Shown: one piece after another, positions 3,845 to 34,869 of the stretch
Layout: every line of letters starts with the position of its first letter
How positions within the stretch are numbered: the stretch's first letter is position 1
Assembly: GCA_016935335.1 (NCBI GenBank)
Contig: JAFGRE010000110.1
Coordinates: forward strand, 1-34,869
Origin: Deltaproteobacteria bacterium
GTDB taxonomy: Bacteria; Desulfobacterota; WTBG01; JAGOGO01
Reading direction: 5' to 3'
DNA: 34,869 nt
Notes under the pieces: generated by a model
Told to the model about the DNA's origin: nothing
Seen by the model: only the letters and a program-made list of their open reading frames with translations
Databases searched by the model: none
Made by a program: the position numbers and the translations under genes

Positions 3845-4976
3845 ACTGCATCCCTCCTTGCTTGTACTATGTAGGTTGTTGGTTTATGATTGAAAGTGTA
3901 ATAAACCTTGTATGTCTATAGATAAAAATGGGATTGCAGGTATTCAGGGCGGAGGCTTCGTCAAGAACCCTTTTGAATGCAAGGTATTGCGGAGCGAATC
4001 GTAGAAAGCGGTTTTTTTGCTGTCATGAGTAACCATCCTTAAACTTCCTCTAAGACAATTCGAGTGGTAATTACCATCAAAAAGGAGTTGAAAAGTGGTT
4101 TTATATTCCTCCTCGAAATTTCCGTTTACTCTAATCAAACACCGATTATCTATTTCACTTTTTTTGAAAAAATAATTCAACCTTTTGACCTGTCAAGAGG
4201 TACATCAATTTTTTCATTGAAAGCAAAATAAAAACCAGCGTTACAGCACGCCAGGGAAGGCCGTGTAAGATCTCATGCGGCTTTGGCTTCTGTGCAAAAA
4301 TGACTGAAAATGCACCGCCCTCAAAAACAATAATTCATGCCGCTTTTGTTTTTATCTCCGCCCCCCCCTTCACCGATCCTACTTTCCCACGTCTGCGTGC
4401 AGTAATTGCCTGCAGCCAAAACGAAAAAACTGGAGCACCGATGCCCTTTAAATCCAACCGGAAAATGGGAAAAACGATCAAGTAATTTTGCAGTACATTT
4501 GCAGTGAATTCACAGAAATTTCGAGTAGAATGCAGTATCTTCCGGTATACCCTGGAACACAGCAAATCGTAACTGACTATTCGTTTAAATCCTATAAATC
4601 TAATAACCAAAGAAACTTTCGGGCGTTGCCAGTTCCCGTTCTGAATTTCATTAAACCAACCTTCCTCAGGTCAAATCATAAGCCTTGCATTTGGAAAGCA
4701 GTTGTGCCAGTCTAAATTAACAGACTTGCTTGCGGCACGGAGAAGACGGCGTTTGCGCGCCACAGGATAGAGCATCATCTGGATGCAATTGACATCCTTG
4801 GTAGCACTATAACAAAAGAAGGATCTCTTAAGGATAGGGGAAAACTCTTACAGACCTGTCATTGTTTCGGGCGGGAGATACTCTCGTAGTACAATTTATT
4901 GAAGGAGGAAGTGCCTGAAGCGGGTTCCGCCCGGTTCCCAGAGACACTGCACGGCGAAAGAAAGGAGAACCTGATC

Positions 4977-6305
4977 ATGCCTGGAAAAGTCAAGGAGCTT
5001 GAAGCAGATGTCGTTGTTGCCGGTTCGGGGCCCGGCGGGGCAACCGTGGCTCGTGAACTGAGCAAGGGAGGAAAGAAAGTTATCGTCTGTGAGGCGGGCA
5101 AGTATTTTACCTCCCTCGGCAAGTTCTACAGTGCCGGTTTGATGATGAAAAAAGGGGGACTGACATTTTCCAAAGAGGGCTTAATGCTCAATATCGGCAA
5201 CACGGTGGGCGGGCAATCAATGGTTTTCGCCGCCTCGGCCTTCCAGCCCCCGTCCTGGCTCAAGGACAGGTACGGCGTTGATCTTCAGCAGGAAATAGAT
5301 GAGTTATACAAGGAAATCCCGATCCGGCCGCTCTCCGATCCCCTCCTTGGTCCCGGAGTTCGCCTGTTAATGGAAACAGCCCAGACGTTGGGGATGGACT
5401 GGAAGCCCGCGGATAAATTCATCCGTTCGGAAAAATGCGTGCCCAATTGCGGCAAATGTTCTCTGGGTTGCACCACCGGGGCGAAATGGACCGCCCGCGA
5501 ATTCATTGATGAAGCCACACAGAATGGGGCGGATCTCCTTCCTCAAACCAAAGTCGAAAAAGTCGTCACCAAGAGCGGTAAAGCGGCAGGTGTCGAGGCT
5601 GAGGGAGCAGGCGGCAAGATAGTCATTAAAGCCGATATCGTTATCCTTTCTGCGGGCGGACAGGGGTCGCCGATCATCCTCCAGCAGTCAGGTCTCCCTG
5701 AGGCGGGTGATGGTTTTTTTGTAGATCCGGTCCTGATGGTGTGGGGAATCGCACCGAAAGGTGGCAACATGCATGACATCCCACTCTCAGCGGGAATTCA
5801 CCTAATGGAAGACGGGATCTTGCTGATGGATGTTTCTTTTCCGCTTCTGCTTGCCTTAGGGCTTGTTGCGTATACAGGAACCGGCGGGCTGGCTTACTTG
5901 CGCAAAGCGATTCATCACAACAAACTACTTGCCGTCATGGTGAAAGTGAGAGATCAGCTTTACGGGCAAGTCCATGTTGATGGTTCCATCTCCAAACCCA
6001 TTGATGATGCGGCAAAACAGAAGCTGAATAAGGGTGTGGGCATTGCCAAGGAGATCCTCAGGAAGATAGGGGTGAAGGAAAACGATATCTTTGTCAATAA
6101 GCCCCTGGGAGGCCACCCCGGCGGGTCGGTGCGCCTTGGCGACCATCTGGATACCAATTGCCAGACAAAAATCACCAATTGTTACTGTGTGGACAACTCT
6201 ATTATCCCCGAACCCTGGGGCCAGCCGCCGGTCGTTACCATCGCGGCCATGGCAAAACGGTTGGCAAAACACTTGATGGCGGATAAAAAACCGAACAACC
6301 GATAG
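4977..6305 (+). CDS. GMC-family FAD-dependent oxidoreductase with CxxxCxxCxxxC-type cluster
   Basis: N-terminal Rossmann motif VVVAGSGPGGATVARELSKGGKKVIVCEAG; CVPNCGKCSLGC; C-terminal LGGHPGGSVRLGDHLDTNCQTKITNCYCVDNSIIPEPWGQPPVVTIAAMAKRLA. Start moved to 4977 because AAAGGAG precedes that ATG. Confidence 0.88.
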   Translation: MPGKVKELEADVVVAGSGPGGATVARELSKGGKKVIVCEAGKYFTSLGKFYSAGLMMKKGGLTFSKEGLMLNIGNTVGGQSMVFAASAFQPPSWLKDRYGVDLQQEIDELYKEIPIRPLSDPLLGPGVRLLMETAQTLGMDWKPADKFIRSEKCVPNCGKCSLGCTTGAKWTAREFIDEATQNGADLLPQTKVEKVVTKSGKAAGVEAEGAGGKIVIKADIVILSAGGQGSPIILQQSGLPEAGDGFFVDPVLMVWGIAPKGGNMHDIPLSAGIHLMEDGILLMDVSFPLLLALGLVAYTGTGGLAYLRKAIHHNKLLAVMVKVRDQLYGQVHVDGSISKPIDDAAKQKLNKGVGIAKEILRKIGVKENDIFVNKPLGGHPGGSVRLGDHLDTNCQTKITNCYCVDNSIIPEPWGQPPVVTIAAMAKRLAKHLMADKKPNNR

Positions 6306-12809: not shown

Positions 12810-14345
12810 TCAAAATCCCAAAAGATCGACCTCCTTTGAATCATCGATGATTGCGTAACGCCCCACGTTGCGCAATCCATCAAGGAGGACCCGCATGGCG
12901 ATGCAGTCGTCTTCGTTGTAGTCTAGAATTCGTTGGCGAAGCAGAACGTCGCCGGTTGCAACCCACCGATGATACCATTCTATGGAAGCAGCCCCCGAAG
13001 GTTCCGTGTCCCGCCATTTAAATCCCAAATAGGTCGCCAGGGTCTTTATGGAATAATCATTGATGGGCCATTCGGTTTTCTTTTTGACGAATTCAGTATA
13101 CAGATCCACAGCAGCGCCCGGAGAAAAAAGCGTTTCGATATCGGCTTCCGAAGCAACCTCGGGAAACCGCCTTTGCAGTTTTCGCACTGTCGTCTTCTCG
13201 TAAGGAGAGTAATAATATACGACACAAGGTTGACGGCGTCTCAGGTAATCCATCGCCTGTTTAAACGCCCTTCGCTCCTGTTCCTCTAACGGCTTATCGG
13301 CAAAGAAAGCATGGTATTTTTCACAACCCCTGGCGGACTGATCACGCTCCAGGAACCCGTGAAGGTAGCAGCAATCCCTGAAAGGATCTGTTTCAACGTC
13401 GAAAAATATCTCGATATCAGCATCCGGCAAAACAATGGATTCCGTGATGTATGGTTGGGCATTGGGGGTGGATAAAAGCCCGGCACGGGCCTGAAAGCGT
13501 CTGAGCGTCGCAGCGCTGATACCGGGAAAGATCGTTTTCTTCCCTTGAATCACGGCAGCTAAGTCGGATTGCGCCAAGTCGCGGACGGTTTTAAAACGGC
13601 GCGACATGGTATCCCTTTTTGCCCTTCCCAGTTCCGGTATGAGCGTCAAGTCATTGTGGCGGTTTAATTGGGAACGGCAATACGAACGCCAGTGGCATAG
13701 CTTACACGCGGAGCATAAAGCCGGAAGTGTCTGTTCCTCTCGTCTTTGGATACGTAATACGCTTTTTAAACAGTCTTTATAATAATTCCAGCAACTGCGT
13801 CCATCCCGTTTACCTACCAACGACTCCAAGTCATAAGCAATTTCCTGGCCGTGAACATCCCAAATAAAAGGGAGACGGTCGGGGGACAAAAATCTGAGTT
13901 TATCGAGGATATCGGTATAGAGCGCAAGCTGGACAGCATAATGTTTCTTGAGCTTACCATCGGTTTTATCGTTTATACCTTCCCTCCCTGCCCCGCTCTT
14001 TATATCGCCGGCAACGTAGCCGTTCCCCCTGCGAACCAAAAGGTCCGGTTCCCCAAGAAGCGTCTCGGTTCGTACCCTGCCGCCATAGATGATTCCTTCG
14101 CCGTTCTGGATTAATTGCAGTGTCCGACGCTCTTTTTCTTCCGAATCAAGAAGATGAAGATCTGCGAAGAGAACAGCCAGCTTTCCCATAGTCTCATGCT
14201 CAAAGGAATTGCCTCTTTCCCACAATAGCTCGACAAAGGGACTAACACGGTCTTTTTCCGAAGGATCACCGTAAAAATCAAGGTAAACCCTCTGGGGGCA
14301 TTGAACATAGTTATATAAAATTGAGGCGGTGATGGGGGTGTTCAT
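12810..14345 (-). CDS. TM0106-family RecB-like nuclease with RNase H-like domain
   Basis: TASILYNYVQCPQRVYLDFYG, GEPDLLVRRGNGYVAGDIKSG, CSACKLCHWRSYC, IEIFFDVETDPFRDCCYLHGFL, and DYNEDDCIAMRVLLDGL. Confidence 0.9.
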   Translation of the reverse strand: MNTPITASILYNYVQCPQRVYLDFYGDPSEKDRVSPFVELLWERGNSFEHETMGKLAVLFADLHLLDSEEKERRTLQLIQNGEGIIYGGRVRTETLLGEPDLLVRRGNGYVAGDIKSGAGREGINDKTDGKLKKHYAVQLALYTDILDKLRFLSPDRLPFIWDVHGQEIAYDLESLVGKRDGRSCWNYYKDCLKSVLRIQRREEQTLPALCSACKLCHWRSYCRSQLNRHNDLTLIPELGRAKRDTMSRRFKTVRDLAQSDLAAVIQGKKTIFPGISAATLRRFQARAGLLSTPNAQPYITESIVLPDADIEIFFDVETDPFRDCCYLHGFLERDQSARGCEKYHAFFADKPLEEQERRAFKQAMDYLRRRQPCVVYYYSPYEKTTVRKLQRRFPEVASEADIETLFSPGAAVDLYTEFVKKKTEWPINDYSIKTLATYLGFKWRDTEPSGAASIEWYHRWVATGDVLLRQRILDYNEDDCIAMRVLLDGLRNVGRYAIIDDSKEVDLLGF

Positions 14346-21379: not shown

Positions 21380-23590
21380 TCAAATCCCGACGCCAAGCAA
21401 ACTGCCCGTTTGAAAAACGAGAACGGTCACTACGTATGCCAGAAGCGTGAGCCCTCCAAGCTGAAACAATGCCCACCGCCATGAGTTGCTCTCTCGCTTT
21501 GTTACGGCTATGGTTGCCATGCACGGAGCGCTGATAAGACAAAAGAGCATGATGCAAAAGCCGGCCAATGGGGTATAGGTGTTCTTGAGTTTGCCCCTGA
21601 GCGTTTCGGATTCCTCGTCCGCTTCACCCACGGAGTAGACGATTCCCATCTGGGCTACAAAGACCTCCTTGGCGGCGAATGCGCCGATGAGGGCGGTGCC
21701 GATTTTCCAATCAAACCCCATCGGCTTCAGAAGCGGCTCTATGCCATGCCCGATGCGGCCGGCGATGCTGTTGCGAAGCGCCGCTTCCGCTTCTTCATTG
21801 TCAATGGAGGCAAGTTGCTCGGCCGTTTCTTCTTCCCCTAGACTTCCTGTCTGGATTTCTTGCCGTGCCATCTCAAATTTTGCTGCTTTGTCAGCGGGCA
21901 AACCGGGGAAAGTTGTCATCGCCCACAACAGAATCGATATGCCGAGAATGATTGTCCCGGCTTTCTTTACATACAGCCACCCGCGCTCCCACATATGGAT
22001 CAGTACACCCCTCAGTGTGGGCATCCGATACGGAGGCAATTCCATAACAAACGGAACCGACTCACCCTTTAATATCGTACCGCGAAGAAGCTTCGCACTT
22101 AGGACTGCCAGGGCGATGCCAATCATGTAGATAATCCACAACATAGGCGCGTACCAGACCTGCGGGAAAAAAGCTGGGATAATAAGCGCGTAAATCGGCA
22201 GCCGGGCGCCGCAGCTCATAAGCGGGGTCACGAGCATTGTCGTCAGTCTGTCCCGCCGGTTTTCCAGTGTCCGGGTTGCCATGATCGCGGGAACGGAGCA
22301 GCCGAACCCGATAAGCATCGGGATGAAACTCTTGCCGTGCAAACCGATTTTGTGCATCAGGCGATCCATGATAAAGGCCGCCCTGGCCATATAGCCGGAA
22401 TCCTCGAGGATTGCGATGGCCAAGAACAGCAGCAGAATATTCGGCAGGAACACTATTACGCCGCCGACACCGCCGATGATGCCATACACCAGGAGAGATT
22501 TCAGCAAGCTTTCCGAGCCTTCCGGCCACCAGCCTTCGACAGCCCCGCCCAACCAACCGAAGAACCCCTCAATCCACCCCATGGGAGGATCTCCCAGGGT
22601 GAAGGTTAAGTGGAAAACGAGGTACATCAATCCAAGGAACACCGGGATGCCAAGAATTCGATTTGTGACTACGGAGTCTATCCTGTCCGAGATCGTATGG
22701 CGGATCTCTATGGTGGAACGTACCGCTTCCTGGCAAGCGCCGGAAATGAATCCATACCTGCGTCCGGCGAGGGCGGTCTCCGGGTTCTCCCCGAGTATCT
22801 TCTCGATGTTCGAAGCACTTCTCTCGATCTGATCATTGACTTCGGGAGATACGACCGCGGCCCGTAACTCCTTGTCGTTCTCAAGAAGCTTCACAGCCAG
22901 CCATCGCGCATCGTCTTTCTCCGTGATCGAACTATTTGTTCTGATTAGGGACTCTATTTTGGCGACCTCTTCCTCGATCTCCCGCCCGTAGTTGATCACC
23001 GGGACTTGTTGGCGAGGTCCTCGAAGACTGGTTCTGGAGGAAAGATTGCCTGGCGATGTTCTTTCCCCGCTTTGGTTTGCCTTCTGCGCACCTTCTTTTA
23101 CCGTTAAGATAATGGCGGCGAGAAGCCCCTTCATCCCCGCACCCTTGTGCCCGACAGTCGGCACAATACGGACCCCGAAAAACCTTGAGAGCTTCTCGAT
23201 ATCGAACTCGTACCCGCGCGCTCTGGCCATATCGCTCATGTTGAAGGCCAGCACGAGAGGTACGCCGAGTTCCATAAGTTGAACCGCGAGATACAGGTTC
23301 CTCTCGAGGTTCGAGGTGTCGAGGATATCGACAACAACATCAGGTTTTTCGTCGATGATGAAGTTTCGGGCCACCAATTCCTCCGCCGAGTAGGCGGTCA
23401 GGCTGTAGGTTCCGGGCAGGTCGACGATCTGCAGTTCGGTATCGCCGTGCCGGCAGAACCCTACCTTGCGCTCCACCGTCACACCCGGGTAATTCCCGAC
23501 ATGCTGGCGAGCGCCTGTTAATTCATTGAATATGGTGGTCTTCCCGGAGTTCGGGTTGCCCGCAAGGGCGACTACTATCTTGGGCTTCAT
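21380..23590 (-). CDS. feoB: Ferrous iron transport protein B
   Basis: G1 ALAGNPNSGKTTIFNELTGARQHVGNYPGVTVERK, DLPGTYSLTAYSAEE, NMSD, nucleoside-recognition/gate motifs (FIPMLIGFGCSVPAIMATRTLENRRDRLTTMLVTPLMSCGARLPIYAL). Confidence 0.98.
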   Translation of the reverse strand: MKPKIVVALAGNPNSGKTTIFNELTGARQHVGNYPGVTVERKVGFCRHGDTELQIVDLPGTYSLTAYSAEELVARNFIIDEKPDVVVDILDTSNLERNLYLAVQLMELGVPLVLAFNMSDMARARGYEFDIEKLSRFFGVRIVPTVGHKGAGMKGLLAAIILTVKEGAQKANQSGERTSPGNLSSRTSLRGPRQQVPVINYGREIEEEVAKIESLIRTNSSITEKDDARWLAVKLLENDKELRAAVVSPEVNDQIERSASNIEKILGENPETALAGRRYGFISGACQEAVRSTIEIRHTISDRIDSVVTNRILGIPVFLGLMYLVFHLTFTLGDPPMGWIEGFFGWLGGAVEGWWPEGSESLLKSLLVYGIIGGVGGVIVFLPNILLLFLAIAILEDSGYMARAAFIMDRLMHKIGLHGKSFIPMLIGFGCSVPAIMATRTLENRRDRLTTMLVTPLMSCGARLPIYALIIPAFFPQVWYAPMLWIIYMIGIALAVLSAKLLRGTILKGESVPFVMELPPYRMPTLRGVLIHMWERGWLYVKKAGTIILGISILLWAMTTFPGLPADKAAKFEMARQEIQTGSLGEEETAEQLASIDNEEAEAALRNSIAGRIGHGIEPLLKPMGFDWKIGTALIGAFAAKEVFVAQMGIVYSVGEADEESETLRGKLKNTYTPLAGFCIMLFCLISAPCMATIAVTKRESNSWRWALFQLGGLTLLAYVVTVLVFQTGSLLGVGI

Positions 23591-24302: not shown

Positions 24303-25064
24303 TTACGCTAACGTTTCGATCTCGATCCCATCGGCCTCCTCTTTCCGCAAAGAAAGATGATAGCCTTTCACCTTGATATCAATAGGGTCGCCCAGCGGGG
24401 CCACGCGCTCCACTTCAATGACCGCCCCAGGGGTGACTCCCATCTCGACAATCCGCTTGTTTGTTTCTCCTCGGGCATTGATTTTCAGCACTTTGCCCTT
24501 TTGGCCTGGTTTTAAATCCTTCAACTTTGCTGTTGCCATCGCTTTCCGACCTCCTTGCTGCCTTCGTTGTCTTACTTCTTCAAGGGCGACCGAGATACAT
24601 TTTTCACAGTTGTCCTGTGTATCGCCCCGATCACAGTGGTAACCAAATCCCGCGATCCACTTCGACCCCCCACGGGGGCATACCTCGACGAATTCGGCAA
24701 ACTGTACAAACCGCTCCAAGATGACTTTGGGGATTGAATGCTCCATTTTGCAAGCCGCCTTGTCGGCATCCGTTTCTTCCACCGCGAGAACCTTAATAAA
24801 AAAATCGCGGAGGACCTCATGGCGCCGGACCACATCCCTAGCGGCGTTCTTCCCGGTCGGGGTCAAGGAAATCAAATCATAAGGCGCATAGTTGATAAGT
24901 CCTTTATCGGCGAGGGAACGAAGAGCGCCCGTTACCGATGAGTTACTGACCTTCAAACGTTTAGCGATATCCTTGGGCCTTGCCGCCCGTTTTTCCACGA
25001 TGATGTGAAAAATAGCCTCCAAATAGTCCTCTAAACTGGCTGTCAATGTATCAGTCAATATCAT
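24303..25064 (-). CDS. DtxR/MntR-family metal-dependent regulator with C-terminal FeoA-like domain
   Basis: SLEDYLEAIFHIIVEKRAARPKDIAKRLKVSNSSVTGALRSLADKGLINY, dimerisation helix DADKAACKMEHSIPKVILERFVQFAEF, C-terminal LKDLKPGQKGKVLKINARGETNKRIVEMGVTPGAVIEVERVAPLGDPIDIKVKGYHLSLRKEEADGI. Confidence 0.93.
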   Translation of the reverse strand: MILTDTLTASLEDYLEAIFHIIVEKRAARPKDIAKRLKVSNSSVTGALRSLADKGLINYAPYDLISLTPTGKNAARDVVRRHEVLRDFFIKVLAVEETDADKAACKMEHSIPKVILERFVQFAEFVEVCPRGGSKWIAGFGYHCDRGDTQDNCEKCISVALEEVRQRRQQGGRKAMATAKLKDLKPGQKGKVLKINARGETNKRIVEMGVTPGAVIEVERVAPLGDPIDIKVKGYHLSLRKEEADGIEIETLA

Positions 25065-25540: not shown

Positions 25541-26677
25541 TCAGCGACGGAAGCCGGAGCAGAACCAGATCAACACCACGTTAATGAGAAGAAAGACACC
25601 CAAACCGTCCAGAATTCTGTTGACACCTAATATCTCCGCCGCCGGTCCCGTCACTAGGATAACCAGTCCTCCCACTCCCCAGGCAAATCCTCCCAGCAGC
25701 GATGAAACAAGTGCACGGTGTTGGGGGGCATGTTGCTGCCCGAAATCAATAATGATAGAATACGGAAACATGAGGGCGACGCCGAGAAAGAAAAAAACCG
25801 CTCCCTTCACCTCCACCTGCTGCACATGAACAAAGCATGGTAACAGTATGAGTGAGAGGACGGTCGCGAGCAAAATCACCTTTTTCTCTCCGATTATCTC
25901 GGCCAACCGTGCTCCCATGACCGGACCCGCAGCACACCCAAGCGTGAATACCGATAAGAGCGTCCCGATAACTACGACTGAATACCCTTGTGTGCTCCAT
26001 ACAATCGGTGTGAAGCAGAATAGGTTCATGGTGATGATGGTTATGCACGTTGCGAACATAAAAAGGGCCCTGATCGACTGTATGGTTTGCACCATCCCGG
26101 AAACAGTATAATCTGAGTGTCCTGTTATGGTTTCTCTCTTGGCCGCGAGGCTCCGCAACAAGGCTAACGTAATGGCGGCCCCCGGCAGCAGGAGAAACCA
26201 GGATTTGCCGATACCCGCAAAATCTGTAAAAAGAGAAACAGCAAGGGGTCCGGCGACAAATCCGAGTGAACCCCACAAAAGAAGGAGCGAAATAGCGTGG
26301 CTGTTATTCCGTGACGGTAGACTTCCTATGTAGCCGAAGACCGCTGGATGAAAAGCCGAGATCCCCAGACCCGCAACTGACAAGCATAGCGCCAACAGGC
26401 CGTAACTGTCGCAGAAACCAAGCATGCCAATGGATGCTCCGACCCAGAGAGGCGACCATTCTATAAAAACCTTGTAACCGATCCTGTCTGCTATCCACCC
26501 GAACACGGGCTGCAGCAAAGACGTGAAGAGGGAAAAGACGGAAACCAGGGATCCGGTCAACGCCAGGGAAAGATCAAGATTTTTCATAAAGAGAGGAAGA
26601 AGAGGCGGGAGAAGACCGGTATATAAGCTGATAAGAAACCGGGCACAATAAATCGCAGCATTTTGCATTCTATTCAA
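25541..26677 (-). CDS. MFS transporter, fosmidomycin-resistance (Fsr)-like
   Basis: 12-TM pattern; LLQPVFGWIADRIGYKVFIEW, LGISAFHPAVFGYIGSLPSRNNSHAISLLLLWGSLGFVAGPL. Confidence 0.88.
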   Translation of the reverse strand: MNRMQNAAIYCARFLISLYTGLLPPLLPLFMKNLDLSLALTGSLVSVFSLFTSLLQPVFGWIADRIGYKVFIEWSPLWVGASIGMLGFCDSYGLLALCLSVAGLGISAFHPAVFGYIGSLPSRNNSHAISLLLLWGSLGFVAGPLAVSLFTDFAGIGKSWFLLLPGAAITLALLRSLAAKRETITGHSDYTVSGMVQTIQSIRALFMFATCITIITMNLFCFTPIVWSTQGYSVVVIGTLLSVFTLGCAAGPVMGARLAEIIGEKKVILLATVLSLILLPCFVHVQQVEVKGAVFFFLGVALMFPYSIIIDFGQQHAPQHRALVSSLLGGFAWGVGGLVILVTGPAAEILGVNRILDGLGVFLLINVVLIWFCSGFRR

Positions 26678-26780: not shown

Positions 26781-26815
26781 AAAAAAAAGCACGGAGTTAC
26801 TGGTCCCCGTGCTTT
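26781..26815 (-). terminator. Intrinsic terminator of the ubiD-containing cluster
   Basis: Minus strand AAAGCACGG-N12-CCGTGCTTT running into an 8-T run; about 95 nt after the ubiD stop. Confidence 0.8.
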
Positions 26816-26910
26816 CGTAGGAGGAGAAGAGATACGTTACGAAATACCGGCAAATTTCATCGTGACAGTTCAGCATGGAACGGTGCTGATTTTGTCGGTT
26901 TTAGTATGAT

Positions 26911-28353
26911 TCAGCGCACGTATTTCATGAGGTCACACGTACCATAATTACAGACATCCGTTTTTAAACACCGCTCCCGCTCGTACGGATCAACGGTGGC
27001 ATCTATTCCCATTTTTGTTACCGGATCCTCCTTGGATTTCCTGCTGGGATCCATGACAAACCCCCAGATTCTTTCGACCACCAAAAGGTCTTCTGCAAGA
27101 TCAGCCCGTGTGGAAATGGCCCAGTTCACCTCATTGGGGTCATCTATGTCGACATCCTTGTTGACGACGACTGCGTACTTTATCCACGGTTCTGATAATG
27201 CGGAAAGAAGTAAATTCTTCCCAAGGCCCCTCTGTACCGGAGGGTAGTCATCCACCTGGATGACACAATTCATAAAGTTGGGCAGTAAATTAATGTTTAC
27301 CACCCTGGAGGAAACGTTTCGCAACATTTGCAGAACCCGGGCTTCCATTGGGACGGCTAGGAGCGATTGCTCCTCTACGGTGCCGGGAAGTATATTTTGG
27401 TAGATCGGATCTTTTCGATGAGTGACACAACTGATGGTGATGACGGGCAGTTCACCTTGGGGGCCGTATATTCGCTGATTTTCTCCCATCGGCCCCTCAA
27501 GACCTGTCTCCTGCCACGATACCGCGCCTTCAAGGATGAATTCCGCGTTTGCCGGCACATAATGATCCACCGTCTTGCAATGGACAACCTCTATTGGTTC
27601 CCCTTTCATCGTGCCCGCGTATTCGAACTCATTTTCTTCATATGGTATGCCCGACTCCGAGGCAAACATCATATACGGGTCCGCACCGATAATGATGGCA
27701 ACCGGCATATCCTGCTTGAGAACTTTGTACTTATTGAATATCATCCAGTTGTGCTGCATCGGTGCGAAAAAAATATTCAAGTGCCGCCCTTCCCGATACA
27801 TCATCCGGCAAATTGAGGAATTTACCTTTCCCGTGTCGGGATCTTTCGTTACCACAATCCCTGCGGTGATATAGTAGTTCGCGTCTTTCTCATAGTTCCA
27901 GGGAATCGACATAATTTCCCGGAGATCTGAGAGTTTTTCGTGCACGACTTCCTGACACGGTGCGGCGTCAACAGCCTTGACCGGCAGTCTTTGGGCATTT
28001 TTAAATGAAGTCACCTTTTTGACCAACTCCTGGGGCTTAACATCGAACATGTACGCAATCATCTTTCGAGAAATATAAATATTCCCCAACATCTTCCGCC
28101 CTTGGCCATCCACGTCCGTAAAAAGGACGGCTTTGTCCATCTCCTTGAGTATCTTCATTTGAACCGTCGCAGCTTCATGCTTACTGCTTACCGCTTTCTC
28201 AACCGTAACAAGCTCACCCTTCTGATCAAGGAAGTCTATAAACCCACGGAGATCGTCGAACGCACGTGCTTGCTGACTTCCCAAAAAGCTAATCACGAAA
28301 AACGAGGCCAGCACCAGAAAACAATATTGCTGTTTGCCCCAAAAACCAACCAT
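26911..28353 (-). CDS. UbiD-family (prenyl-FMN-dependent) decarboxylase with N-terminal Sec signal peptide
   Basis: UbiD motifs VNSSICRMMYREGRHLNIFFAPMQHN, PVAIIIGADP, ENEFEYAGTMKGEPIEVVHCKTVDHYVPANAEFILEG, LEGPMGENQRIYGP, VTHRKDPIYQNILPG. N-terminus MVGFWGKQQYCFLVLASFFVISFLGSQQARA/FDDLRGF is a signal peptide; AAAGGAGG SD precedes this ATG. Confidence 0.93.
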   Translation of the reverse strand: MVGFWGKQQYCFLVLASFFVISFLGSQQARAFDDLRGFIDFLDQKGELVTVEKAVSSKHEAATVQMKILKEMDKAVLFTDVDGQGRKMLGNIYISRKMIAYMFDVKPQELVKKVTSFKNAQRLPVKAVDAAPCQEVVHEKLSDLREIMSIPWNYEKDANYYITAGIVVTKDPDTGKVNSSICRMMYREGRHLNIFFAPMQHNWMIFNKYKVLKQDMPVAIIIGADPYMMFASESGIPYEENEFEYAGTMKGEPIEVVHCKTVDHYVPANAEFILEGAVSWQETGLEGPMGENQRIYGPQGELPVITISCVTHRKDPIYQNILPGTVEEQSLLAVPMEARVLQMLRNVSSRVVNINLLPNFMNCVIQVDDYPPVQRGLGKNLLLSALSEPWIKYAVVVNKDVDIDDPNEVNWAISTRADLAEDLLVVERIWGFVMDPSRKSKEDPVTKMGIDATVDPYERERCLKTDVCNYGTCDLMKYVR

Positions 28354-28509
28354 TTCTACCTCCTTTAGTAATTGATTACCCTTACAGTAGGGACTTCTAC
28401 CCGCCTTCTTCGACTTTCAATCCGGTTTGCCCTTATCTTTCACCCGCCGGACTGCAACAATCGCTGGTTATCGTGAATCCCATTCTCCAGTCTTAACCAT
28501 CTCTCTTTT

Positions 28510-28586: not shown

Positions 28587-29906
28587 TTATTTCCCAAGCG
28601 ATAACAACTTTTGGAGGCTGTAACTCTTCGGGTCTGAGCCCCGATCATAGGTAATTGTATCCGCAAAAAATCGAGAAGAGTGTCCCGTCTGCAAATCGTG
28701 CATCGCAAATCCATACCATTGCGCGTAGTTTGAACCATCAACTTGGAAATATCCTCCCCGGTGCGCAATGTAAGCCTTATAGATTTTTCCTTGCCGATCG
28801 TAAATATCCCCTACCTGAACCTGAAGGATCGGAGACCAGCACTCCGGAGCCGGCACATAAAGGACTCTCTTGCTATAAACATGTTTTTCTTTGGGGGTCC
28901 CTTCCAAAATATAAACCGGGGTTACCGCCCACCATACCCGTAAGAATTTCTTGCCCACATCGTACTGCACTCTGGATGGATCCGGATATCCGTCTTCACC
29001 CGATAGCGGCGAGGGATCATCTTCGGGGAAGGGAACTTTGGTGGCGGGCGTCAGAATATACTTCTTCCCCAGCAGCTTAAAATCCCAGTAGGCGAAAGGG
29101 TCGTTTGCAAGACCGGGGTCGCAACTGAGGATATCTGATCCGCCAATGTTATCCTGATATGTAGTAGCGCTAACCCGCAAGGTTCTCTTGAAGGCCGGCA
29201 AATAGGCAAACCCCGTATCAATATTCTTCGTGTCATCATAGTAACGGATACTGAACTGACCAAGCCCCTTCATGTTGAGCGGCTCGAGAAATACCGCTAC
29301 TCTCCGATAATTCTCATTATCGAGACCAGGATACGAACCAAGGGGTTCGTTTTTCAATCTACCATTGCAGCGCACGTAGCTTGCACGGTATTTGTAAGTC
29401 TTATAATTTTCTCCCTCGCTGTTATTGAAAATGAGCCATTGATTCGGGAAATAATATTCATCTGCAGCCCATCCGAATTTCAAATTGGCGAGGACATCAC
29501 TCGCAGTTTTCGGATCGGTAGAAGGCAATCCCCCCGGCCAGGGCGAACCATCCTGGAGATAAACGGTACCATTTTCATCGATTACCGCTTTACCTTTATT
29601 CTTTTCGGTAGCATCCAGGAAATGTTTGGGTGCGAGTTTGTCTGTGGGAAGATGCTCACCCATAATCAACTTCATTCCCTTCTGGACGCACTCACACACG
29701 CCTGCCGAGAGATAATCTTTTACAAGATCGACATTGCTACTATCTATGACGTCACCAAGTTTTACCTTCCCACCGGTGAGCTCTTCAATGGTCGGAACTT
29801 TTTCGTCGCCAAATGCGGTTTCGACCCCGGAGACCAGAACAAGATTCATGCCGGAAAAAACCAAAAAACCTATCAAAAATGCGATTGTTTTAGAATATGA
29901 TCTCAT
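28587..29906 (-). CDS. DUF1329-family exported protein
   Basis: Signal peptide; PNQWLIFNNSEGENYKTYKYRASYVRCNGRL, GFAYLPAFKRTLRVSATTYQDNIGGSDILSCD...FAYWDFKLLGKKYILTP, C-terminal DTITYDRGSDPKSYSLQKLLSLGK. Confidence 0.88.
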   Translation of the reverse strand: MRSYSKTIAFLIGFLVFSGMNLVLVSGVETAFGDEKVPTIEELTGGKVKLGDVIDSSNVDLVKDYLSAGVCECVQKGMKLIMGEHLPTDKLAPKHFLDATEKNKGKAVIDENGTVYLQDGSPWPGGLPSTDPKTASDVLANLKFGWAADEYYFPNQWLIFNNSEGENYKTYKYRASYVRCNGRLKNEPLGSYPGLDNENYRRVAVFLEPLNMKGLGQFSIRYYDDTKNIDTGFAYLPAFKRTLRVSATTYQDNIGGSDILSCDPGLANDPFAYWDFKLLGKKYILTPATKVPFPEDDPSPLSGEDGYPDPSRVQYDVGKKFLRVWWAVTPVYILEGTPKEKHVYSKRVLYVPAPECWSPILQVQVGDIYDRQGKIYKAYIAHRGGYFQVDGSNYAQWYGFAMHDLQTGHSSRFFADTITYDRGSDPKSYSLQKLLSLGK

Positions 29907-29961: not shown

Positions 29962-31470
29962 TTAAAACTGAAACGTCACCCTCCCGTATAGGGTATCGGC
30001 CCAATACATACTGCCGAATCTGGCCGCTCTTCTCTCGCTCCCGGCGAGAAATACGGCGTAGATGTCGAAATACCAATCATCACCATATTGATATCTGAAT
30101 TGAGGTTTGATCAACCAAGCATCATCGGTATCATAAATGAACTGGCAGGCGACATAGTAATCGTTGTGCCAGAAGGGCTGTTTGAATTGAAAAGTAAGGT
30201 TCTCTACCGTCTTATCGATCTTACTGTTTCCTCCCCCTAAAATCCTATTCTCATCACCTTCAACCACTGTCTGAGTAAACTGGAACTGAAGATTACACAT
30301 GCTCGAGTGGAGGAACTGCTTTGGCACAATTTGTGTTAATCGATCAACCCTAATCGCATACTTCCACGTCCCTTGGTCCTTAATTTCAGGCCTGCTGGCG
30401 CCTGTTGCCGCATCTCCGTATGGTTGATTCGGAATCCATGCGCCTTCAAATGTGACGACGGCGTTTAAAGGGTCTCCCAAGTCGTAGTTCATTGACAATC
30501 CGTAGAGGTCAATAGGCTCGTATTCTCCGGTTACAATCATGGCGTAACGGGTAAAATCCCCGGCACCTGCTCTCAAGGGGACCCCGCGGATCGGATCAGG
30601 CGTAAGCCGCTGGTACCTAAAGTTTGATCCCTGATTGTGCAAATGCATATAATTGAGAGTCGCATAGAACCCGCCAACCATCCCTCCCACTCGCATTCCA
30701 TACTCCATCTTCCCTCGGTTGTCTCTTGGCACGACCCGCAGGAATCCGGGTAACGCACGAAGATTAAATGGTGATCCTGACTCCGGGTCGATAGTCGGAA
30801 CAACATCCCCAGGGTTCAAATAACCCTCTACGGTCAAGTCATTCAACCACGAGACAAGATTTCTCTTGATATTGTAACTAGCGCGTATCGACCACACGGG
30901 AATTCGAATATTTTCAAACTCCTCGGGCTCAAAGAGAAAATTCCAGCTTCGATCAAGATTGTTGGCGGCATCAAGGATTCGTCCTCCGATCATTTCACCC
31001 CACACAATCTGTTGCTTTCCAAGTCGAAGCCATAAATCTTTTATAGTGAAATCAGCGTACAATTCCCATATTTCAAAACGATAATCGTCTTTGCTGGCCT
31101 TGAGCATCGTCCAGTCATCGTCAGGCACATCCACCGGAAAGGCGTTGTATTTCGCGATCTCGTCATCCCACCGGTATGTCTGATCTCCGGTTATCCGCAT
31201 GTTCGAATAGATCTTAAAAGAGTCACACGGCTTGTAAGTCCATTCCATCTGAAAAAAGGACCTGGCCAAATTGAGGTCATTGTTATCGCGGCCAAACTGG
31301 GCATTATTAGGATTTTTTTGGGCAATGTGCAGGCCCAGTTCATAGCGGAGGAATCCCGCAACGGAAAGACTATCGGTGAGTTGGATCTCACACCTGGTCG
31401 GCTGAAATGTTCCCGCCGCTAAAACCAGCACTATCATGCAAATTACCGATGCGAATATTTTTCTCTTCAT
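29962..31470 (-). CDS. DUF1302-family outer-membrane beta-barrel protein
   Basis: LYADFTIKDLWLRLGKQQIVWGEMIGGRILDAANNLDRSWNFLFEPEEFENIRIPVWSIRASYNI; signal peptide after MKRKIFASVICMIVLVLAAG. Start set to 31470, which follows AGGAGGAGG. Confidence 0.88.
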   Translation of the reverse strand: MKRKIFASVICMIVLVLAAGTFQPTRCEIQLTDSLSVAGFLRYELGLHIAQKNPNNAQFGRDNNDLNLARSFFQMEWTYKPCDSFKIYSNMRITGDQTYRWDDEIAKYNAFPVDVPDDDWTMLKASKDDYRFEIWELYADFTIKDLWLRLGKQQIVWGEMIGGRILDAANNLDRSWNFLFEPEEFENIRIPVWSIRASYNIKRNLVSWLNDLTVEGYLNPGDVVPTIDPESGSPFNLRALPGFLRVVPRDNRGKMEYGMRVGGMVGGFYATLNYMHLHNQGSNFRYQRLTPDPIRGVPLRAGAGDFTRYAMIVTGEYEPIDLYGLSMNYDLGDPLNAVVTFEGAWIPNQPYGDAATGASRPEIKDQGTWKYAIRVDRLTQIVPKQFLHSSMCNLQFQFTQTVVEGDENRILGGGNSKIDKTVENLTFQFKQPFWHNDYYVACQFIYDTDDAWLIKPQFRYQYGDDWYFDIYAVFLAGSERRAARFGSMYWADTLYGRVTFQF

Positions 31471-31616
31471 GACCCTCCTCCTATTGTTATTCATCTTCCA
31501 AACTTTTTTGAGGGGAGCCCCATGCCCCAAACCTCACTCACAAAGATCCTTCCTGCAGCCGTCTCACCTCCATTCTCCAGTCTATTTTGTTGTTTGGTAA
31601 TGTACCACTCTCATGA

Positions 31617-33944
31617 TTAGGCTCTTCCAAGAAATTTTGGTTTAAAAACATATACCAGCGCAGGGATTAGTAATAGTGCCCCGATCATATTGATGAACAT
31701 GATAATCCCCAGGAGTAATCCCATTTCGGCCTGGAATCTCATACTCGAGAGAAAATACCAGAATATTACTCCCGCGATCATGGCTGCGGTTGTGAAAAAA
31801 ATGGCTTTCCCCGTACTCCTCACGGCTTTCGCGGCTGTATCATAGCTATATCCGCCCATAGCTTTATATTCCTCGCATAGACGGCTGAGGAGGTAAACCC
31901 CATAGTCAATACCAACACCGACACCCACGGAGATTATCGGGAGAGTGTTAATATTAAGTCCGATACCCATAAATTTCATTATGCTCAGCGTTACCAGATT
32001 AGCAAGGTTAAGGGGGATCATCAGAATCAAGGCGGCAACGATGGACCGATAGGTAAGCGAGCAAAGTAAGAAGATAGCTGTAGTAACGAGGAGTATATTG
32101 AGAAACTGGGACTCCTTCACCGTTTCATTTATCGCCGCCAACATTCCTATCGTGCCTGAGGCCAACTCCATGGTGACATTGTTTTCTCCCAGCAGATCTT
32201 TAGATTCTTCCCCGAATCTCTTTGCCCACGACAACGCGTCCCTGATGGTATCACCCATATGGTCCTTGAACCACACAATGACATTCGCGCTGCTCCTTTC
32301 TCTGCTAAAGTAAAGATCGTAATCTTCCGGGGCGGACTTGGCCACAAGAAGATAAAAAAGCTGCGTGACCCCCCGCTGCTCCACGGGGAACACCTGCCAC
32401 TTAAAGTAGCCTCCGTAGATACTTCTCTGAATACGGGGTAAAAAGTCCTGTACGGAGAGCGTAGTTGCCACTCTCGGATTTTGCTCCATATGGCGCTGAA
32501 ACGATTCCAGCACATTGAGAAAATTGGTATCTTCGATCGAGTTTTTATCTTGCCCTTCAAAAATTACATACAGCTCTTCCGTCCCGGGAAAGTTCTTATT
32601 GATCTGATCAATGGCCACATTGTATTCTGAATCCGGCCAGAGAATCGGAGTGCCGGGATTCACATCGCCGATTTGGATCTTGGTGGTAATCCAGCCGCCT
32701 ATGACAAAGAGAATAATTGCCGTAATAAAAACACCCCAGCCGGCTTTGCCGAAGCCCAATCGTGCCAGGGGTGCCAACGCGTGATGTATTAACCCTTTCT
32801 TGGGATTTACAATGTCTTCCACATTCCCTGGCGCCTTAAAGAATGAAAGCATAAGTGGCGTGAAGATGATTCCATTAAAAACAATGGTGATGGCCCAAAA
32901 AGAACAGACGTAGGCAAGCTTCTCCATGATAGGTATTGGCGCGACTGAAATGAGCAGAATCCCCAGCGCATCGGTAGTAATTCCTAAAATCCCCGGTGCT
33001 AGCATTGAACTCGAACAATCGACTGCGGCTTTCCTTACATCCCTTGATTCAACGTAGCATTCGAAGTATCGCTCGGTAATCTGGACGGAATGACAGAGAG
33101 CTCTGGCAGCGATTAAGAGCGGAATCACCAAGGTGAGAGGCTCTAAATTGTACCCCAGGAAACCTGCGAAACCCAGCCCCCAAATTGCTCCGATCATCAT
33201 CGCCAATGTCGGTACGATCATTCCAACAAGGTTCCTGAAATAGAGATAGAGTAAAACTATCAGGGTGAAAAAGGTGATTCCGAAGATCCAAAAGGTCTCA
33301 CTCTGATAGCTGAAAATCCATCCCGACAGCATTGGCTCGCCAGCTACAAAAAGTTCATGATTTGAATCCGTAACTTCATCTTTCAAGTCCTGAATATTCT
33401 TAAAAAGCACCTTCGGATCAACCAAGCGGGGGATGAAACTGGCGGAGAATAAAAGGGAGGTTTCATCGCGGGATACCCAGACCCGATAAACCGAGCCGGT
33501 TCTTCGAACCGTCTTCTTGAACTCCTCCATCTCCTCTGCGGTCGAAGGAACGACATCCATAAAGTTTTCAGTTATGATGCCGTCAGCGGTTACCCTTGTT
33601 TTTTTAATTTTCCGTGAAGCTATCGAATAAATCTGGTTGTGATTGACACCCGGAATCAGATCGAGATCATCGGTTATTTTTTGAGCCTTTTTCAAAGTCT
33701 CTTGATTGTAAATGTCCCCCCCTTTGACCTTCAGCATCAATAAAACCTTGTACGGAGCTCCCAGTTGCTCTTCGTATTTCTTATGCGTCTTTACATAGGG
33801 ATGATTCTCAGGCAACAAGTCTTCAAACTGTGTTTCTACTCGCAGATGAACCATCTCCCAGGCAAACAAGGCAGTCACCACAAGCATGGCAACGATCATC
33901 ATCACGCGATGGTCAATCAACCAAATACTAAGCTTTTTCACCAT
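31617..33944 (-). CDS. RND/MMPL-family transporter permease
   Basis: Two 6-TM halves with large extracytoplasmic loops; FEDLLPENHPYVKTHKKYEEQLG, GVGVGIDYGVYLLSRLCEEY. The ATG at 33944 is preferred over the alternative TTG at 33968. Confidence 0.9.
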   Translation of the reverse strand: MVKKLSIWLIDHRVMMIVAMLVVTALFAWEMVHLRVETQFEDLLPENHPYVKTHKKYEEQLGAPYKVLLMLKVKGGDIYNQETLKKAQKITDDLDLIPGVNHNQIYSIASRKIKKTRVTADGIITENFMDVVPSTAEEMEEFKKTVRRTGSVYRVWVSRDETSLLFSASFIPRLVDPKVLFKNIQDLKDEVTDSNHELFVAGEPMLSGWIFSYQSETFWIFGITFFTLIVLLYLYFRNLVGMIVPTLAMMIGAIWGLGFAGFLGYNLEPLTLVIPLLIAARALCHSVQITERYFECYVESRDVRKAAVDCSSSMLAPGILGITTDALGILLISVAPIPIMEKLAYVCSFWAITIVFNGIIFTPLMLSFFKAPGNVEDIVNPKKGLIHHALAPLARLGFGKAGWGVFITAIILFVIGGWITTKIQIGDVNPGTPILWPDSEYNVAIDQINKNFPGTEELYVIFEGQDKNSIEDTNFLNVLESFQRHMEQNPRVATTLSVQDFLPRIQRSIYGGYFKWQVFPVEQRGVTQLFYLLVAKSAPEDYDLYFSRERSSANVIVWFKDHMGDTIRDALSWAKRFGEESKDLLGENNVTMELASGTIGMLAAINETVKESQFLNILLVTTAIFLLCSLTYRSIVAALILMIPLNLANLVTLSIMKFMGIGLNINTLPIISVGVGVGIDYGVYLLSRLCEEYKAMGGYSYDTAAKAVRSTGKAIFFTTAAMIAGVIFWYFLSSMRFQAEMGLLLGIIMFINMIGALLLIPALVYVFKPKFLGRA

Positions 33945-33957
33945 AAGACTTCCCCTG

Positions 33958-34869
33958 CTACTGCTCAAGGTTAACAGATAGCGACATCTTCCTTATCAAG
34001 CCACTTCCACCCACCACCAGTTCGGTAGGACAGCTATTAGCCGTTACCGCGATATCACCGAACCATGGATAGGGTGGCGGTATATTCAGTTCTACTGAGG
34101 TCCATGACCTTCCGCTGTTGCAGGTTTGAAGAATTGTGGCTTGATCGCCGACTATAAATCCCTCTTGTCCGCATAGAAAGATCCTATGGAGACTTGCTTT
34201 TGTAGGAACGTCTATCTGACCCCAATTTTCTCCTCCGTCATTGGTATAGAGGAGCAAACCATTTTGCCCGGCTGCCCAACCTTCATTTGCACCAACAAAA
34301 AAGACAGTGAAAAGCGGTGCCAACTGACCGGCTCGTAAGAGATTCCAGCTTGTTCCGCCATCCGATGTGGCTAATACTATGCCGTAATCACCGACCATCC
34401 ATCCCTTGAGATCGTTGATAAAAAAGAGATCATAGAGGTTAGGCGCAATCACCCCCATTTCAATCAGGCACTCCGGCAACACTGAAAACCAGTCTATTTC
34501 GACGGGTACCCAAGAATTCCCTCCATCATCCGTTTTTAAAATTGTTCCCGTCTCACCGATGGTAATCCCCTTAGCTTCATTAAGAAAAATCACTTGCATG
34601 AGTGACGGTTCAATGCCACTCTGTTGCGGAGTCCATGTCCGGCCGCTGTCTTCAGAATGTAGAATCACGCCCCCCTGACCCACGATCCATCCCCTATTCC
34701 CCCTTAAAATCACATCATTAAACGAATGAAACGTATTCGAATCGATCTTGGTCCAGTCCTGTCCAGCATTAGTTGTCCGAAGAATGAGTCCCCTGTTGCC
34801 CACGGCAACCCCAGTGTTGCTATCGACGAAACTCAGGCCGAATACTAAATCCCGGCGGCTCATTTTGCA
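33958..34869 (-). CDS. YCF48/BNR-repeat (photosystem II assembly factor HCF136-like) protein, 5' end outside window
   Basis: Repeated GWxVGxxGxIL..T.DGGxxW motifs (GWIVGQGGVILHSEDSGRTW, GITIGETGTILKTDDGGNSW, GWMVGDYGIVLATSDGGTSW, GWAAGQNGLLLYTNDGGENW); no signal peptide visible, so the N-terminus is probably truncated. Confidence 0.85.
   Translation of the reverse strand, partial: CKMSRRDLVFGLSFVDSNTGVAVGNRGLILRTTNAGQDWTKIDSNTFHSFNDVILRGNRGWIVGQGGVILHSEDSGRTWTPQQSGIEPSLMQVIFLNEAKGITIGETGTILKTDDGGNSWVPVEIDWFSVLPECLIEMGVIAPNLYDLFFINDLKGWMVGDYGIVLATSDGGTSWNLLRAGQLAPLFTVFFVGANEGWAAGQNGLLLYTNDGGENWGQIDVPTKASLHRIFLCGQEGFIVGDQATILQTCNSGRSWTSVELNIPPPYPWFGDIAVTANSCPTELVVGGSGLIRKMSLSVNLEQ

Follow-up and report, generated by a model that had tools for sequence, protein, structure and literature searches.

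To our knowledge, UbiD enzymes have been treated as cytoplasmic and their cofactor, prenyl-FMN (prFMN), as made in the cytoplasm and difficult to mature. The best solved match for the UbiD protein described here is 6h6v/6h6x, which we take to be an HmfF-type decarboxylase of Pelotomaculum. Like our protein it has three UbiD domains and retains the active-site residues. Unlike our protein it starts at the domain, without a signal; the relationship is distant, with a long branch in the tree, and the substrate is not transferable. The closest described gene neighbourhood is AmeABCD of Castellaniella defragrans, which gives monoterpene tolerance (PMC6394551). There, as here, a DUF1302 outer-membrane protein, a DUF1329 LolA-like periplasmic protein, a Ycf48/COG4447-like periplasmic protein and an HAE3 RND transporter are found together, and the paper describing AmeABCD makes no mention of UbiD (PMC6394551). 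A literature search that covered papers other than subscription ones found none linking prFMN or UbiD to a periplasmic or Tat location.

The window is a stretch of 34,869 nucleotides (contig JAFGRE010000110.1, assembly GCA_016935335.1, a Deltaproteobacteria bacterium). Reading its ORFs, we found a UbiD-family gene encoding a complete protein of 480 amino acids (Table 1). Its position and N-terminal sequence agree with those given in a first-pass annotation, to which we add the strand. UbiD_N (residues 39-115, 56 bits), UbiD (128-325, 199 bits) and UbiD_C (331-452, 75 bits) were all matched above the Pfam cut-offs, which places the protein in the UbiD (de)carboxylase family, and TIGR00148 scored 318 bits where its cut-off is 245. 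The nearest solved relative, 6h6v, aligned with residues 34-455 (E 7e-64). The UbiD domain begins at about residue 33-39, behind a leader of 31 residues, so that the leader is indeed joined where UbiD proteins usually start. The strong Shine-Dalgarno sequence reported ahead of the ATG was also found (AAAGGAGG, 5 nt spacing).

Table 1. Positions of the features discussed, in the window and in other contigs.
Feature	Contig	Position	Strand	Basis
UbiD-family decarboxylase CDS with export signal	window	26911..28353	-	ORF, Pfam, solved-structure match
Shine-Dalgarno sequence	window	28359..28366	-	5 nt upstream of UbiD ATG
Predicted Sec-type signal peptide of 31 residues (MVGFWGKQQYCFLVLASFFVISFLGSQQARA), with cleavage predicted at A31|F32	window	28261..28353	-	sequence, n/h/c rule, -3/-1 Ala invariant with L011
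Mature UbiD, which keeps the metal-prFMN phosphate site (N178/H201/E255) and the catalytic triad (R183/E286/E291)	window	26914..28260	-	alignments
C-terminal CX10C (C462, C473), past UbiD_C; candidate disulfide	window	26935..26970	-	conserved in L011
Ycf48/BNR-like protein (AmeC-like), 5' end cut by contig end	window	33958..34869	-	Pfam
HAE3/MMPL-type RND transporter (AmeD-like)	window	31617..33968	-	domain models, PMC6394551
DUF1302 outer-membrane protein (AmeA-like), probably starting with MKRKIF near 31470	window	29962..31530	-	Pfam, PMC6394551
DUF1329/LolA-like exported protein (AmeB-like)	window	28587..29906	-	Pfam, PMC6394551
Rho-independent terminator-like hairpin, 12 bp stem and T tract, downstream of UbiD	window	26785..26816	-	
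MFS transporter beyond terminator; position identical in L011	window	25541..26677	-	Pfam, comparison with L011
Sec-type UbiD	L107	2043-3602	+	
Sec-type UbiD	L108	1137-2708	+	
Sec-type UbiD	L109	2890-4482	-	
UbiD with Tat signal	L110	7034-8695	-	
UbiD with Tat signal	L113	5958-7724	-	

The leader of the window UbiD consists of a positive n-region, a hydrophobic core and A-R-A, and the protein passed a rule test for the n/h/c-regions and A-X-A of a Sec-exported protein. Of the 77 UbiD ORFs examined only 5 passed this simple rule, each belonging to one of the exported lineages A, B and C described below, and thus the signal of the window UbiD stands above chance. We sought a twin-arginine motif in this protein and in its close relative L011 and found it in neither. 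This agrees with the earlier remark that a Tat motif is absent, and it points to Sec as the route for lineage A.

A scan of the genomes' contigs gave one close relative of the gene, L011 (the same contig as G002). It comes from a Deltaproteobacteria digester MAG that belongs to the family of the window's genome. The L011 UbiD is 76-77% identical to the window UbiD overall; it begins MYSFLPKHRLFGAAITLPVLMIVAIIMMMDSSNAYA, followed by FEDLR, and AAGGAGG lies ahead of its ATG. We found that the two proteins share 9 of 31 residues in the signal and 354 of 449 in the mature sequence, and that both signals have a hydrophobic core and alanines at -3 and -1. Judged from the two sequences, this pattern of divergence, in which the signal has changed and the -3/-1 alanines are kept, is that of an evolving cleaved signal peptide. 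Between the mature parts dN was 0.135 with synonymous sites saturated, and by this measure the mature part is under strong purifying selection; the comparison is shallow, with two species only. A profile of the pair found matches at E<1e-90 in 2 of 396 phylum genomes, these two only. The first-pass annotation would have taken homologues lacking the N-terminal extension as evidence against export; the sole close homologue carries the extension and more distant UbiDs are without it.

The draft genome is split into 246 contigs, one of which is the window, and a signal peptide could have been joined to a cytoplasmic UbiD by assembly or binning. However, the independently assembled MAG, with a UbiD 76% identical, shares both the fusion and the gene order. 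For the fusion, L011 rules out an assembly artefact, and we regard artefactual joining of either kind as extremely improbable. UbiD would also remain in the cytoplasm if its signal were non-functional or if a downstream start were used. The characterised UbiDs that we know of are all cytoplasmic (or mitochondrial in yeast), and potential later starts exist as a TTG late in the hydrophobic stretch in the window and as ATGs in L011. In both species, however, a Shine-Dalgarno sequence is found ahead of the upstream ATG only, the frame and the signal features are retained across diverged sequence, and the cassette neighbours are envelope proteins, which makes a cytoplasmic location very unlikely. 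The window TTG lies 7 codons before the cleavage site and is without a Shine-Dalgarno sequence, in keeping with the earlier view that a cytoplasmic isoform is not to be expected.

The leader might instead be an uncleaved anchor that tethers UbiD to the inner membrane, facing the periplasm. The hydrophobic run of about 14 residues might also act as an anchor, and the positive n-region would leave the C-terminal domain outside. We consider this quite unlikely, because the A-X-A directly ahead of the domain is retained in both species despite divergence elsewhere. The Sec signal that had been described from its n-region, h-region and A-R-A is thus supported both by the rule test and by the diverged but retained signal of L011, and, judged by sequence, it is very likely that the window UbiD carries a working export signal.

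We found in an alignment of 76 UbiDs that the mature protein has both the Arg-Glu-Glu triad (R183, E286, E291) and the Asn-His-Glu metal/phosphate site (N178, H201, E255). The complete active site claimed for this protein was therefore found, with one residue reassigned. The glutamate of GTMKGEP, which had been taken for the metal ligand, is E252; it is not conserved in the alignment and is lysine in L011. The conserved metal glutamate is E255, in PIEVV; its counterpart in E. coli UbiD is the glutamate of TEVVKC. With R-E-E and N-H-E present the window UbiD appears catalytically competent, as had been judged by eye. Both lineage A proteins carry the CX10C pair, against 0 of 46 cytosolic UbiDs; this candidate disulfide would be consistent with an oxidising compartment. 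An AlphaFold run on the two-row alignment gave a pLDDT of 30 and was not used.

From upstream to downstream, on one strand, the cassette consists of the Ycf48-like, HAE3 RND, DUF1302, DUF1329 and UbiD genes, and L011 has the identical five-gene order. The RND protein matched the HAE3 model TIGR00921 over its length with 161 bits, below the curated cut-off. The occurrence of DUF1302, DUF1329, Ycf48-like and HAE3 RND genes together makes this an AmeABCD-type cassette; it differs from that of Castellaniella in its order, C-D-A-B, and in having UbiD as the last gene. Since a strong terminator-like hairpin directly follows UbiD in the window, UbiD closes the cassette unit. Identity between the window and L011 is 55-76% for the cassette genes and 48% for the MFS gene. 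Ame-like cassettes are common across the class, and among the others that we read none was seen with a UbiD beside it. The cassette suggests a hydrophobic compound as the substrate. A paralogous cassette in G002 (L150, 4768-6158) ends at DUF1329, where the contig ends. In L160, L163 and L164, Ame-like cassettes are followed by tandem runs of several FAD-dependent oxidoreductase-like genes.

We consider it reasonably likely, from these sequence features, that the window UbiD is an active prFMN enzyme outside the cytoplasm within an AmeABCD-like system. A prFMN-type UbiD (de)carboxylase would be exported by Sec and trimmed after ARA, and the mature periplasmic protein would then serve as the enzyme module of an envelope transport system of the AmeABCD type. 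That system would handle a hydrophobic acid, probably an aromatic or unsaturated one, or the product of its decarboxylation. The gene, its signal features, the conserved residues, the cassette and the second species are observed, whereas export itself, the loading of prFMN outside, the direction of the reaction and the substrate are points that we infer.

Sec translocates unfolded chains, so the Sec form of lineage A would need prFMN outside. The UbiX proteins of the window genome and of G002 have no signal, and a search for an exported UbiX found nothing beyond normal UbiX and some weakly matching, longer proteins that are probably CoaBC-like. Thus prFMN would be made by the single cytoplasmic UbiX and would be received by the apo-enzyme in the periplasm through a putative flavin exporter, by analogy with the known export of FAD by Bfe for periplasmic use (PMC5655446). 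In the Bfe/ApbE assembly of periplasmic flavoproteins a flavin from the cytosol is likewise used outside, but this flavin is FAD and not prFMN, and ApbE transfers FMN covalently (PMC5655446). For its maturation prFMN depends on an oxidant, which is an unsettled question in anaerobes (PMC10865409), and for PhdC ferricyanide can stand in for oxygen (PMC13040415). An envelope location may help anaerobes to oxidise prFMNH2 to the active form with envelope oxidants.

Alternatively, the UbiD fold may be exported but repurposed; in the envelope it would then serve the transporter as a binding or accessory protein without cofactor, and not as a prFMN enzyme. There is no known prFMN route into the periplasm, the UbiX of both lineage A genomes lacks a signal, the gene forms part of a transport cassette, and the Tat lineage has lost the metal histidine (threonine in L110 and L113). 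Lineage A, however, keeps all six active-site residues at 76% identity and under purifying selection, and we find a repurposed fold doubtful. The first-pass annotation had left three options: export of the holo-enzyme without a Tat motif, export of the cofactor, or a repurposed fold. Proteins pass through Sec unfolded, and purifying selection has kept the active-site residues, so for the window gene these options narrow mainly to periplasmic loading of the cofactor, with the repurposed fold as a less likely rival.

We surveyed the UbiD ORFs of all 17 genomes of the class and of the phylum and read their N-termini. Three lineages have leaders: A (the window and L011), B (L107, L108, L109) and C (L110, L113); in the remaining UbiDs surveyed a signal was sought and none was found. 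The three genes of lineage B have Sec-type leaders. Two of them, L107 and L108, fail the strict signal rule, yet their leaders are clearly hydrophobic. The leader of lineage C, SRRNFLTTGAVGVAAVTAGC, is a canonical Tat signal (SRRNFL) found in two genomes from two families of the class; the Pfam Tat-signal model in L110 falls just below the cut-off, and both genomes encode TatC. UbiD of the Tat form could leave the cell interior already loaded with cofactor.

In the UbiD tree lineage A lies far from B and C, which indicates that export arose at least two times; by parsimony UbiD export involved three changes in total. Lineages B and C form a class-specific 'PYDSLRDY' subfamily that, like the window UbiD, has export signals and belongs to the same class, but it is a separate branch of the tree and was not seen in an Ame cassette. 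In the alignment of 76 UbiDs, L109 keeps all six active-site residues, as do L107 and L108 in a separate alignment, whereas the Tat members, unlike the window UbiD, have threonine in place of the metal histidine. Plasmid UbiDs, matched from about query residue 16, were rejected as exported forms; their N-termini are hydrophilic and have no signal.

Tentatively, and with slightly less than even confidence, we suggest that UbiDs of one class moved to the periplasm at least two times, by Sec and by Tat, together with a route for prFMN export or for periplasmic loading and oxidation, giving extracytoplasmic prFMN chemistry. If these UbiDs are exported, then either prFMN or the loaded holo-enzyme crosses the inner membrane. 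They would provide tests of prFMN trafficking and of oxidative maturation without oxygen, which earlier work left open (PMC10865409, PMC13040415), and decarboxylation of hydrophobic acids would be placed beside an envelope transporter.

We also noted several features of the surrounding genes. The UbiD genes of L108 and L109 adjoin MamH-like MFS genes. In L107 a ferredoxin-dependent bilin reductase-like protein (PF05996; 794-1495, minus strand) is encoded next to the exported UbiD, and a partial ORF (4618-5148) resembles one near an Ame-like cassette in L154. Elsewhere in the window, a fusion of a DtxR-type iron repressor with a FeoA domain (24303-25064, minus strand) is encoded upstream of a FeoB-like gene (21380-23590), and the ORF at 12810-14345 (minus strand) encodes a PD-(D/E)XK and RNase_H_2 nuclease of 511 amino acids.
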